DNA from: Bolinopsis microptera
Lineage: Eukaryota; Ctenophora; Tentaculata; Lobata; Bolinopsidae
Direction of reading: 5' to 3'
Length of the DNA stretch: 64,000 nt
NCBI RefSeq assembly: GCF_026151205.1
Contig: NC_087081.1
Coordinates: 5,389,246-5,453,245, forward strand
Shown here one piece after another: positions 43,636 to 54,357 of the stretch. The translations under genes were made by a program, and so were the position numbers. Under the pieces are notes generated by a model. It saw only the letters and a program-made list of their open reading frames with translations, searched no databases and had not been told where the DNA came from. The stretch's first letter is position 1, and every line of letters begins with the position of its first letter.

Positions 43636-46600
43636 TCAAGCAAACACCTCAGGAGACTCATCAGGGTTCGCATTGATTTTGTCGTATGAACCTGGTTGTT
43701 TGGTTTCTGAGAGGACGGGGAGTATCCCTTTCTTCCAGTCCCACTTCGTTGTGATAGCTTCATCTACTTTGTATACCTGTAAAATAACAGGTTAACTTAT
43801 AGTTATTAACTTAAAATATTAAATTAACTTAAAGCTATTAAATTATATTACAGTGCATATGGAGAGCAGATTTCAATCCCGAAATAAAATCACATTTTCA
43901 ATATTTTAAAGCCAGTTTGGAGAAAAACTAGCTAAAACATTTCCTTGTGTTTGGAAATTGACAAGTACTTACCCCCTTATCTCTGTTATGACGCTTAAAG
44001 AGGATGCACCCAATGAGAAGGACTATAATTATCACTAAAATAACTACTCCTATGATAATATAAGGAAGATTGCTTTTCTTGTTAACTACCGGCTGCGCCT
44101 GAGGAGTTTAAATGTGATGTCATCTACCTCATAAAAATCAATTATTATGGTATTGGATAACCGTTTTGGAAAATGTTACCGTATTACGACTAGATAAAGT
44201 AATTAATCATTGTGAACATATGATTGAACTAAAAAAGGTGAGGCTAAATTAGGAATGAAGTTAACCTTCTGAAGTATGGCACAAATAAGGGTTTTGATTC
44301 TGAATAATATAACAAGGCTTATTTAGTTTTAAACTTACAGTTGACATGATTGGCTGCGTGGTGGGAGGTTTAGTGGTGGGTGGAGGGGTGGTTACTATAT
44401 CAATATCACCCCACAGGAACGGCAACACCGCTGAGCACCCGTCGTCATCTATTTCTGTAAAGATTTTAAGTATGTTAATGAGAAGTGAATCGTAGAGTTT
44501 AACTGAAACCTTTTCTTTAAAATCAAAACTTTTATTGTTTTTATCTTTCAATCTCACTTCCACTTACCCTCCATAATCATCTCTCCTCGCGCAGGCAAAC
44601 TTCCGGTTGCTACGGCAAAGAGATCGTCTCTGTTGAATACAGCATCTGGAACGTTATAAAACATATTATTATTAAGTTATTAGAATAGAATATAACTATA
44701 AAACATGTTATTCATAGAATATAACAGAATATAATAAAATTACTTAATGGTGGTTAGATCTAGACCTTGAAATAACTCATCGATACATTTTTCCATGACT
44801 GCGTAATTAACTAAATCCACAAATCAAATATTACATAATCATTAATAAATCATATTAATTTATTGTAATCAATTATACATACCAGCCATGCAGCCTTGAA
44901 ACAGATCTCCCGTCAAATAATGGCCCAGAATATACTCCTGTGGCTTAAAGAACATCACGTTATCTCCGACTGAAATAGTTGTTAATGATTAGTTGTTAGT
45001 TGGTCAGGTTAGTGGGTTCTATTTATACTCACTTAGCTAAAATCTTGGTAAAAAGTCACACGTATGTCTCAATGTCTGGATATCTACAACTTTCAGAATA
45101 TTTCAATAATTCCCGTTAAAATGGAAGGTAAATTAGGCGACCTATTAGGCCGTTTAACATTCATATCCCTAATGTAACCACAGACAAGTCAACGATTTAA
45201 GGTCACACATTATACTACCCAGAACTAACTAGCGCTATTTAAAATGCGTAGAAAACTTACTCTCAGTGAAATTAACAGAAATCTTCTCGATAGTGTCCAC
45301 TCCGTTGATTCTCAGTAGGACCTTGTGGTTCTTCCTCAGTATCTGTATAGTAGAACTAGTTCCCAGAGGGAGGACCTCCTCACTGACAGTCTCAAACTCT
45401 GCTATGTTGTCCCCGTGTGTGAGGTGCATTATTACTTTTACTGTCCCGTTTACCTGAGGGCAATTTTAAATAAATTTTATGGGTGATGATTTGAAGTTAT
45501 TTGTGGTAATCAATTATTCGTTTTGACAGCTGTTGCACGTGCGCTTGTCACGTGACGCTTTAATTTTACAATTTTACCTTCATTATTTAATGCACGTTAA
45601 CAAAACCTACCAGTGAGATATCCCAGAAGTTAGCTAATTCAGGATCATCCATCAACATCCCTCCTTCTATTCGTATCAACCTGAGTGCAAATTAAACTTT
45701 AAACTTAATGTTTCTATTACTGCCGTACCGGCTACGTATTATTAAATTTTGAAACATTTCTCACATTGGAAGATAAGTTTAACTTTTTAAATGACTCAAT
45801 GGACGAAGTATAATCAAGGCCAGTCGCGTAACGCGTTAACAATTACCTAGCATTGAGAGTATCAGGCTTGATGGTCATGGATAGTTTGTCAGTGTAAGTA
45901 GACTTGGTTCTCTGCAGGGTGTACCTCATTGCGGAGTGCTGGCTAAATGACACTGCAGCAGCTGGAAAATAGATTGAGTTTAGTAAAAGTTAAGTTGTGT
46001 CGTGTTTTGCATAAAAATAACACTTTGTTCATTAAATAGAAAGTGTATTTTTACGGAAATGAAAGGAACTGCAGTCGAAAATAAAATTGATAAAAAATCG
46101 AATTTCGCAATAATTGGAATATTTATAGAAAGAAATATTGTAGTCGTAAAACTGAATAATCAAAGGACAAAAGACCAATTTAGGTTAAAAAAATCAAATC
46201 GCAACATCTATTTTTTATCTATTATTATACTCTAGTAGCAGGGCATAGTTGAGTGTGCACTTCGATGTATACGATTTCTGACAACACAGGGTTGTTTGTT
46301 AGGTCATTATAAACCAGAATCGTTTAGGTGGACAATTTGTTTCGCTAGAGACAACCCTACAGGGCAAATTTTCTAAATTACCCTCAGTCGCGTATACGGG
46401 ATTTTTGTATTTCGGCTCCTGAAGGTCATGGAGACTTTATTTTTGGCGTAAAATTACCGCAGTGGCCATATTTATATACAACTTATTAATCAATGTATGG
46501 TCTAAAATTGTTTTTTCCCGAGATATCTGCAAAAAACTAATTTAAGCTCAGGCGTAGGCACAAATTTCATCAAATTTGTATCTCAGCTTCTGAAGTTCTT

Positions 46601-52600: not shown

Positions 52601-54357
52601 AACTAACCCGTCAAGACAGAAGTAGGTAGCCTTGCTGCCCACATCGTAAGAAGCGTACTCCACCCGTCCGTTAGAAGGGGGGTCCAGCTTACCACACCCA
52701 CACGGTCTGTTAACATGAAGGGGTTGCACTCCAGCTGTAAGAGGTTATTAGATAAGAGGTTGTTTAAAGATAAGAGGTTGTTAGATAAGCTAATAAGGAG
52801 GGGGATCAGATTAGGGTTCTTAGTATTTTAACCATCACATTTTAATAATAATTTCGTAACATCGTTTTCCAAAGAATTTTTTCCATTTCGGACAAATGGG
52901 ATGGGGGTGTTCTAGAAATGATACAATGAAAAGTTATTTAATTAATTAACTAATTAAATAATTATCTAATACGACTTACGGAGAGGTTCCCAGTTGGAGA
53001 TATCATTGTAAGTATCTCCCCCAGGACAAGAAGGTCCCAGTATCCCAGCTCCGCTTTTTAAGGCTGGTACACATGTAAACATCATACAAAACTGTGAGTC
53101 TATGTTGATTCCTTCCGCTTGGTAACCCTGTGAAGTATAAATGTAGTTAGTTACTTACATAACTTAGTAAATTGTTGAAAACATGGAATAGCTGATGCAT
53201 TTAAGTTTAATGGTGTGTAAAAGACATATTTCAAAGAAAACGTTACAAAGCTCAAAATTCATATGAAGATCGTATGGATTATTAAGGTATTAATGATCAA
53301 TTAATAAATTACCAATTTAATGATGTCTAGGATGGCTTGTTTTGCTCCAGCAGATATTCCGGAACTGAAATCCCCAAGATACGCTATTCCAAGTGCGCTG
53401 CTAGCGTACTTTGACGTGAAACTTCCCTGCGAATTACCATTTCATTAATTAATCTTACGAATTATTAAAATCTTTAATAGCTGTTCATCGGTTAACTGCT
53501 TTGATGTAGGGCTGCAGGTGATTGTAATTTTGCATTTAAAAGACGTCATTTTTGCGATTAACTACGATAGTAAATAAGGTACCCGTAGTCAAGAAACTGT
53601 GCGGAGTGCAGCGCTTAAAGTAATTAACATTAACCTTTTTAATTTTTACAGGACGTGTATTAATTTACATTCAACTATTGAGTATTGACTACAACTAAGT
53701 GATCGAATTAGGAAACAAATCCATCCAAGATGTGCTCCTTTATCAATCAATTAAACTACAATTAAAACAACCATTAACTATAAGTATAACGTACCTGTCT
53801 GGTCCACCCCACACCCTCATAAACATCCCCCATGCTGCTCACATAGAAGTTGAACTTCAGATCCGGATTTCCAGCTCCAATATCTCGCTGTTGAAGCGAC
53901 CGGAGAAATATCTGACAAGCTTCCATTGTGGTGCACTCAGCGGCTCCTGGGACGACTGTTGTGTAATGTTAGGGTTGAGAAAGTGCGACCTTTGTCACGT
54001 CTACTTATTTGGTGGGGAAGTGGTTAGTGGTACCCAATCTGTGGGCACAGGGGTCTCAAATTTCTTCTTCAGTTATAACTTCATGTGATTAAGATATGCG
54101 GATGATATAATGGATAATTGTTGTTGAACTTGTTGGAAAACCACTGCCTATATAAAACGAGTCAATTTTAAATTGCAGTTCTCAGATTGTGAAGTTTAAC
54201 AAGAAAGCAACTAACCCTCATTTCCGATAACGATATCAGTTATCCTGGTTAGAGATACCCCGGCAGTGTCGGTAGGCTCAGCTCCCCAGTCGTATCTTTT
54301 AACAATATCCAGAGAGGAGGATAGAGGGAGGAGGGTTAGCAGGGCTAACAGTATCAT
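43636..54357 (-). CDS. Type I membrane receptor: signal peptide-PGRP-sushi-PGRP-kringle-laminin G-TM
   Basis: Twenty exons: 54357-54216, 53955-53795, 53426-53313, 53127-52980, 52734-52608, 52231-52146, 51861-51714, 51570-51450, 51286-51162, 50754-50588, 50360-50227, 49857-49728, 45961-45847, 45680-45611, 45453-45261, 44969-44883, 44645-44568, 44454-44339, 44098-43973, 43776-43636. The phases agree throughout: 842 aa. Signal peptide 1-15 (MILLALLTLLPLSSS). PGRP1 ~20-188 (RYDWGAEPTD, FYVSSMGDVYEGVGWTRQ, ALGIAYLGDFSSG, CPGGDTYNDISNW). Sushi ~200-259 (CGKLDPPSNGRVEYASYDVG, TCEVSGAWGD). PGRP2 ~262-425 (CNFYIAKTGIVYEGRGWGIK, CFLGLD). Kringle ~447-534 (NYQGTKSVSVSGCPCLAW, NFCRNPD, GPWC). Laminin G ~536-690, ending FQGCMA. 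Thr/Pro stalk ~735-754, TM ~767-788, ~54-residue tail. Probably a cell-surface receptor for bacterial wall or carbohydrate ligands. Neither PGRP keeps the zinc-site histidines, so no amidase activity is expected. Confidence 0.88.
46226..49013. mobile_element. ~2.8-kb foldback element with >1-kb inverted arms
   Basis: The left end (ACTCTAGTAGCAGGGCATAG) and the inverse of the right end match. The arms stay near-identical through AAATTTTCTAAATTACCCTC (left arm), ATATGGAGG-type AGCTCCTTCCAGCTATCTTA, and CTAGCTTCCACCAACACCCA near the centre (~47,850/48,045). The right arm carries a C/G-rich insertion of CCCGGTCC-type repeats (48213-48330). No transposase is seen; the open frames are artefacts of the palindrome. 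It occupies most of the 3.8-kb intron between the kringle and laminin-G exons of the receptor gene. Confidence 0.85.
50057..50215. repeat. (TAATTAGTAATTACCATG)n 18-bp minisatellite
   Basis: Nine near-perfect copies in the intron between the two kringle exons of the receptor gene. The unit is itself largely palindromic (GTAATTAGTAATTAC). Confidence 0.97.
52345..52607. repeat. (CTAA)n tetramer microsatellite starting at a splice donor
   Basis: About 65 units with short CTAAATAA and CTACCTAC interruptions. On the gene (minus) strand it reads (GTTA)n. Its first unit is the donor of the receptor's exon 5 (GACGG|GTTAGT). Confidence 0.97.

Follow-up and report, generated by a model that had tools for sequence, protein, structure and literature searches.

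Several insect PGRPs (PGRP-LC, LF and LD) are membrane-anchored and feed Imd-type signalling, and the mammalian PGLYRP3/4 carry two PGRP domains. Some of these proteins are non-catalytic, and in mode of action they are the nearest known counterparts of the gene described here. None of them is known to have sushi or kringle domains or a neurexin-type half.

The best solved relative of the two PGRP domains reported here is amphioxus BbtPGRP3 (PDB 4Z8I, 4ZXM; PMC4610682). As far as the cited sections describe it, BbtPGRP3 is an active zinc-dependent amidase with a signal peptide, a chitin-binding domain and one PGRP domain (PMC4610682). According to part of a further source, many animals have PGRPs, insects and mammals among them, but the proteins are missing from others, such as the sponge Amphimedon and the anemone Nematostella (PMC7308585). 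Comb-jelly immune genes have been surveyed with 20 Pfam domains; no PGRP or amidase domain is named in the sections cited here, and the term “PGRP” has 0 occurrences in the main text of that survey (PMC11797021).

Here we describe a gene of the comb jelly Bolinopsis microptera, located in a window of 64,000 nucleotides on contig NC_087081.1. Its predicted product is an apparent type I membrane protein, with the order signal peptide, PGRP1, sushi, PGRP2, kringle, laminin G, stalk, transmembrane helix (TM) and a tail of ~50 residues. Like BbtPGRP3, it joins PGRP to another binding module. In contrast, BbtPGRP3 as described lacks sushi, kringle, laminin G and TM (PMC4610682). The PGRP-sushi-PGRP-kringle-laminin G-TM architecture was not found in the literature searched.

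Gene structure and domain composition

The gene occupied positions 43636..54357 of the reverse strand, with the start ATG at 54357 and the stop TGA at 43636; all coding features below are on this strand. Our own splicing gave 20 coding exons in a single open frame of 842 codons, with GT-AG borders in 19/19 introns. This reproduced the coordinates, the 20 exons and the 842 aa of the initial annotation, although not blindly, the splice sites being picked by eye from the reading frames with the earlier exon and length totals known beforehand. All 20 exons were open in the model frame, compared with 3/40 in the two wrong frames. The G + C content was 0.478 in the coding sequence and 0.333 in the introns.

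Exons 1–4 (52981..54357) encoded a putative signal peptide (~aa 1–15; hydropathy 2.06 at residue 1, the sole basis for this call) and PGRP1 (aa 16–188). Exons 5–6 (52147..52980) encoded a sushi/CCP domain (Pfam match at aa 202–249, 4.1e-7, 30.7 bits against a cut-off of 20.7), and exons 7–10 (50589..52146) the PGRP2 region (aa 260–446). The kringle (aa 447–534) was found on exons 11–12 (49728..50360), with a Pfam match of 5.2e-17 and 62.4 bits (cut-off 34.3) in the full protein; plasminogen and HGF kringles were matched.

The PGRPs were examined with Pfam and by a phmmer search of the PDB. Amidase_2 reached 5.4e-5 and 24.0 bits in the full protein, below the cut-off of 26; isolated PGRP1 had no Pfam match at E up to 1, and isolated PGRP2 only one at E 0.048. 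Against the PDB, PGRP1 matched amphioxus PGRP3 best (9.1e-16, residues 17–185), and its 26 matches at E up to 0.001 were all named PGRP or CG14704. PGRP2 also had amphioxus PGRP3 as best match (5.7e-10, residues 27–115 of the region), and all of its 27 matches at E up to 1 were PGRP, CG14704 or one “amidase”. PGRP-LC and PGRP-LF were among the matches. The domains read in the initial annotation (PGRP, sushi, PGRP, kringle, laminin G) were thus right: sushi and kringle passed the Pfam cut-offs, both PGRPs were recognized in the PDB and laminin G was borderline; it was in Pfam that the PGRPs fell short, both staying under the cut-off.

The five introns between domains (4, 6, 10, 12 and 17) were all in phase 1, compared with 8/19 of all introns (hypergeometric 0.0048, a post hoc value, the domain boundaries having been named after the phases were seen). 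The divergence of the PGRP domains and the low-complexity repeats adjoining exons 5 and 11 would fit a decaying gene or an assembly artefact. We consider this highly improbable, since the 20 exons are free of stops and frameshifts, every splice site is intact and the cysteine-rich frames are kept, with 5 Cys in the sushi stretch (canonically 4) and 8 in the kringle stretch (canonically 6). In addition, the matches to the PGRP region and to the anchor region fell at one locus on a chromosome-size contig.

The long intron between kringle and laminin G

Intron 12 measured 3766 bp, far above the 113–407 bp of the other 18 introns, and the initial annotation had named a break between two genes here as an outcome that would speak against its model. 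Its length is due to an inserted mobile element at 46227..49014 (no strand assigned), bounded by 537-bp terminal inverted repeats that are 98% complementary and whose arms are repeated genome-wide. The element accounts for 2788 of the 3766 bp, leaving ~1 kb.

Besides the length, two features would agree with a rival model in which two genes or isoforms meet at intron 12, one for a secreted product made up of PGRP-sushi-PGRP-kringle and one for a membrane protein with the laminin G domain. Read-through past exon 12 meets a stop after GEFQ, 4 residues beyond the last Cys of the kringle, and an AATAAA lies ~165 bp past the exon 12 donor; together they make a secreted isoform possible. The intron held 4 AATAAA in all, near chance (mean 3.18 in 500 shuffles). 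A gene boundary is argued against by the mobile element, by the phase-1 junction of exons 12 and 13, which has the same phase as the other four domain boundaries, and by exon 13, which has a good acceptor and lacks its own start with a signal peptide. By simple hydropathy and donor criteria, intron 12 contained 0 candidate signal-peptide exons ending in phase 1. The laminin G domain of a related gene on C13 (see below) also seems to start at a phase-1 boundary, its acceptor being read by eye. Finally, GC3 was equal on either side of the junction (0.504 in the N-terminal half, 0.505 in the C-terminal half). We therefore regard a split at intron 12 as improbable and treat the locus as one gene.

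Active site of the PGRP domains

In amphioxus PGRP3, the zinc ligands are His121, His230 and Cys238, the catalytic residue is Tyr156 and a disulfide joins Cys128 and Cys134, with a second one at Cys91-Cys214 (PMC4610682, in part). PGRP1 had 0 histidines and a Phe in place of Tyr156. In the phmmer alignment, PGRP2 had Asp at the position of His121 and Cys at that of Tyr156, and its single histidine was placed in a later helix by MAFFT. The zinc Cys (SCPG/KCPG) was the sole catalytic-site residue kept in both domains, which thus lack the set of two zinc His, zinc Cys and catalytic Tyr of a catalytic PGRP. Both are probably dead as amidases, judging from these residues. Since the lost residues include the histidines of the site, peptidoglycan binding may be lost too. 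The Cys128-Cys134 disulfide pair (C39 and C45 of the MAFFT alignment) and the VYEGxGW motif were invariant in all 4 aligned sequences, both receptor copies included.

The pattern of loss differs from that of the insect membrane PGRPs and PGLYRP3/4. Those typically lose the Cys, whereas the receptor keeps it and loses the His.

Recent capture of these domains from a bacterial or phage amidase was also considered and rejected, since the PDB matches were mostly animal PGRPs and the domains carry introns.

Search for further PGRPs in the genome

The Amidase_2 profile (PF01510) had no match in the whole genome. It missed even the receptor gene, so that degenerate PGRPs split over exons escape a search of this kind. 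Amphioxus PGRP3 as query recovered receptor exon 2 (1.1e-5) and three further matches at E 1.3–1.7. Realignment found no PGRP at these three loci, which coincide with or adjoin long open frames taken, from their motifs, to be sulfatases. With the PGRP-sushi-PGRP region of the receptor as query (24/24 candidates scored), 25 matches were obtained, 10 from the gene itself and 15 to the sushi region elsewhere. None of the three queries revealed a second PGRP gene in the Bolinopsis microptera genome, at a limited sensitivity that a divergent small-exon PGRP could escape. The full-length query gave 62 matches, consisting of its own exons and kringle-region matches elsewhere, and the 54/127 candidates scored included no relative of like architecture.

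A neurexin-type anchor

The laminin G/LNS domain (aa 535–715) was encoded by exons 13–17 (44568..45961). Laminin_G_1 scored 22.4 bits in the full protein and 25.3 bits with the C-terminal half alone, around the cut-off of 24. A Thr/Pro-rich stalk followed in the re-spliced protein (~aa 716–765; exon 18 and the start of exon 19, 44066..44568). Exon 19 (43973..44098) also encoded the putative TM (window aa 768–786; 3.71 at residue 768, from hydropathy only) and the start of the juxtamembrane motif KRHNRDKG. The tail, VYKVDEAI...SPEVFA, and the stop were on exon 20 (43636..43776). In Pfam, the Syndecan match of 22.2 bits was below the cut-off of 25.2.

In the PDB, the C-terminal half matched the neurexin-1 tail (1.3e-4) and an LNS domain of neurexin-1 (0.0095); the tail match was weak by itself, at 0.0038 for the stretch alone. 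The juxtamembrane motif NRDKGVYKVDEA was also present in human neurexin-1 and at two other loci of the Bolinopsis microptera genome, on C13 and C3. The receptor tail alone was compared with the tails of C13, C3 and human neurexin-1, and each score was reached by 0/5000 shuffles. The controls were weaker: against human neurexin-1, the score of the C13 tail was reached by 9/5000 shuffles and that of the C3 tail by 7/5000.

Of the loci found, the gene at C13:8,152.9-8,157.7 kb was closest to the membrane-proximal half (one-to-one BLAST 3.5e-6). Its protein, joined by eye, exceeded the Pfam cut-offs for Laminin_G_2, Laminin_G_1 and Syndecan. It shares the LamG-TM-tail order with the receptor, with NKDKGVYKLKE and DW-G-LP in its tail, but matches to PGRP, sushi or kringle within 25 kb around it were no better than E 1.9. 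The locus at C3:21.033-21.034 Mb is likely a ctenophore neurexin, based on its tail and on 219 residues of protein sequence that were joined by eye (E 2e-5, with 0 stretches passing alone).

Judged by these matches and motifs, the membrane-proximal half, from laminin G through stalk and membrane helix to the tail, is of neurexin type, a likeness that the initial annotation did not note. With human neurexin-1 and the likely neurexin on C3, the receptor shares the membrane-proximal LNS/laminin G domain, stalk, TM and GxYxVDE motif, the juxtamembrane motif being of the 4.1 type. The likeness is confined to this half. Neurexins have an LNS/EGF head and a PDZ-binding C-terminus, whereas the receptor has a PGRP-sushi-PGRP-kringle head and ends in EVFA, compared with EYFI at the C3 locus. 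From its sequence, the receptor is neurexin-like at the membrane, yet we do not class it as a neurexin.

Proposed function and origin

Our main reading, to which we give a probability of about 0.5, is that one mosaic gene encodes a non-enzymatic type I surface receptor that would capture a microbial or other ligand and couple it to the cell cortex. Binding by the PGRP-sushi-PGRP-kringle head would leave the ligand uncut; the likeliest ligand would be a glycan or peptide of a microbial surface, and it may be something other than peptidoglycan. A role as pattern-recognition receptor is plausible; symbiont sensing, also proposed in the initial annotation, would be speculative. A search of Pfam domains at E up to 1 returned none of the TIR, death or kinase type for the tail. 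The lack of a Pfam signalling domain, together with the neurexin/syndecan juxtamembrane motif, makes coupling to the cortical cytoskeleton probable, by analogy via 4.1/FERM or a CASK-type adaptor. With an adaptor in place of a signalling domain, the receptor would act by capture, clustering, uptake or a signalling partner, and not in the style of a Toll-like receptor.

Alternatively, the product could be a true membrane protein whose PGRP domains no longer see microbes and instead bind other proteins, in adhesion, in self-recognition or at neural contacts. The loss of catalytic residues from both PGRP domains and the neurexin-type anchor would suit such a role, as would the kringle and sushi domains, whose usual partners are proteins. 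However, both copies keep the PGRP disulfide pair and VYEGxGW, and non-catalytic insect PGRPs sense bacteria. We find this alternative possible but somewhat unlikely.

Under the main reading, a surface receptor for microbial or other ligands, the gene would encode a receptor of an unusual kind in an animal lineage that branched early. No canonical Toll-like receptor was identified in Mnemiopsis in the cited part of the comb-jelly survey (PMC11797021), which makes the receptor a candidate for bacterial sensing in comb jellies, and one that can be tested.

Exon shuffling may have produced the gene, through duplication of a PGRP domain that came to sit on a neurexin-like anchor. A broader scenario, which we hold only tentatively and think rather doubtful, places PGRP in the last common animal ancestor; comb jellies would have kept one gene, lost the enzyme activity and put PGRP on a neurexin-type anchor. 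If true, a microbe-recognition head on neural-adhesion docking machinery would be an early, direct link of immune recognition to neuron-type contacts. PGRP1 and PGRP2 share a phase-0 intron at an equal position, after VYEG(V/R)GWxxx, as expected of duplicates.

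Gene structure and the kringle/laminin G junction

The receptor gene lies on the minus strand of the window. Exons were chosen by eye from the splice sites with the totals of the initial annotation already known, and this non-blind re-splicing returned an identical model: 20 exons from 54357 to 43636, encoding 842 aa plus a stop. All introns were GT-AG (19/19), and all 20 exons were open in the model frame, compared with 3 of 40 wrong frames. The G + C content was 0.478 in the coding sequence and 0.333 in the introns. A TAAC array of 66 copies (52344-52607) reached the donor of exon 5 (52608), which thus sits at a microsatellite edge.

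We consider it likely (probability roughly 0.87) that a single transcript encodes the PGRP-sushi-PGRP-kringle-laminin G-TM architecture. The initial annotation had flagged intron 12, between kringle and laminin G, as a possible break between two genes. It measured 3766 bp, the other 18 introns 113-407 bp. Reading through exon 12 reached a stop after four residues and an AATAAA lay ~165 bp further on, as a gene end there would have it, but the frequency of this signal was near chance (4 vs 3.18), and intron 12 shrank to about 1 kb once a mobile element inside it was taken away. A scan of the intron under simple criteria recovered no alternative in-phase signal-peptide exon. The between-domain introns (4, 6, 10, 12 and 17) were all in phase 1, compared with 8/19 of all introns (0.0048, post hoc test).

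The element (46227-49014) was of the foldback type, with 537-bp inverted ends (98% complementary) and, by eye, a TA on each flank, and was repeated genome-wide. One end gave at least 68 matches in the genome (best 40 of 615 candidates scored): at least 40 near full length with 94-100% identity, its own two arms counted, and at least 28 weaker and partial. By our own count there were at least 14 further inverted pairs 2-3 kb apart. The genome searched had 264,652,675 bases, with 13 chromosome-size contigs (C1, 26,206,493, to C13, 16,350,194; C14 had just 198,114). Published values for Bolinopsis microptera are 265 Mb, 13 chromosomes and a largest one of 26.2 Mb (PMC11797021; karyotype also in PMC10232365).

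Domain composition

The proposed sushi and kringle domains held, both well above the Pfam cut-offs in the full protein (30.7 and 62.4 bits). Elsewhere in the genome, many kringle matches followed one another in a 1593-aa open frame (C11:16,207,738-16,212,048) and clustered in long open frames at C8:14.419-14.430 Mb.

The PGRP assignment was supported by sequence matches to PDB entries and fell just short in Pfam. Amidase_2 matched two stretches slightly below cut-off (24.0 vs 26 bits); isolated PGRP2 reached E 0.048 and isolated PGRP1 had no Pfam match. Against PDB, PGRP1 gave 26 matches at E <=0.001 (best 9.1e-16), every one named PGRP or CG14704, and PGRP2 gave 27 at E <=1 (best 5.7e-10), named PGRP, CG14704 or, once, amidase. 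Laminin G was likewise borderline: Laminin_G_1 scored 22.4 bits in the full protein (cut-off 24) but 25.3 when the C-terminal half was scanned alone. Syndecan, over TM and tail, stayed below its cut-off (20.2 or 22.2 vs 25.2 bits). Among 18 PDB matches of the C-terminal half at E <=1, eight were neurexin-1 chains, among them the tail at 1.3e-4 (the stretch on its own, 0.0038) and a laminin G-type (LNS) domain at 0.0095; the remaining ten were unrelated (0.25 or worse).

PGRP active site and origin

In amphioxus PGRP3, the zinc ligands are His121, His230 and Cys238 and the catalytic residue is Tyr156 (PMC4610682). Both receptor PGRPs retained the zinc cysteine, the Cys128-Cys134 pair and VYEGxGW in the alignment, but lacked the zinc histidines and the tyrosine. 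PGRP1 (aa 16-188) had zero histidines, and the single one of PGRP2 (aa 260-430) was placed by MAFFT in a later helix; Tyr156 was replaced by Phe and Cys, respectively. With these residues gone, both domains should be enzymatically inactive. Introns 2 and 8 occupied matching places and phases in PGRP1 and PGRP2, which supports an origin of the pair by duplication.

Membrane anchor and possible function

The C-terminal half had 12 matches in the genome (15/15 candidates scored), eight on the receptor gene and four elsewhere: C13 (5.3e-4), C3 twice (0.0016 each) and C188 (0.13, containing stops). The C13 locus was a laminin G-stalk-TM-tail gene whose protein, joined by eye, exceeded the Pfam cut-offs for Laminin_G_2 (33.9), Syndecan (31.2) and Laminin_G_1 (25.2). 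Its tail motif NKDKGVYKLKE corresponded to NRDKGVYKVDEA in the receptor and NRDEGSYHVDES in human neurexin-1. The C3 locus ended in NNKGTYKVDES...EYFI and, judged by sequence, is probably a neurexin; PMC4685580 lists 1 and 1 neurexin in two ctenophore columns. Tail-only scores of the receptor against C13, C3 and human neurexin-1 were each above all 5000 shuffles. The likely neurexin tail exon occurred twice on C3 (21,033,950 and 21,148,428, ~114 kb apart), through either a real duplication or a second haplotype that the assembly retained.

According to a review, CASK binding to 4.1 proteins promotes F-actin nucleation at neurexin-formed junctions (PMC8473747). We give even odds to the proposal that the receptor captures its ligand without enzymatic activity and is linked to the cell cortex; peptidoglycan is a candidate, unproven ligand. 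In the literature searched, with subscription journals and preprints outside its scope, no paper combined a PGRP domain with kringle, or PGRP with kringle, sushi and laminin G. A single paper that brought together PGRP, a kringle domain, transmembrane and domain architecture concerned a clam mannose receptor. The portions seen of PMC7308585, PMC11576321 and PMC3308963 report no ctenophore PGRP, and that of PMC10945410 has nothing on ctenophores.

Other features of the window

At 7127-8929 (minus strand) lay an open frame of 601 aa without introns and of the HypX/HoxX type (hydrogenase maturation), matching HoxX chains in PDB (E 9e-97) and formyltransferase and enoyl-CoA hydratase in Pfam. Among 58 candidate loci from a pattern-limited search of prokaryote genomes, 13 were confirmed, with 31-37% identity, in records titled as Campylobacterales-type bacteria. 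Such a frame is surprising on an animal chromosome, and old horizontal transfer is one reading. The window also held a retroelement RNase H region (28557-29639, plus strand) and part of a major-facilitator transporter gene (1563-2408, minus strand; MFS_1, 2.2e-16).
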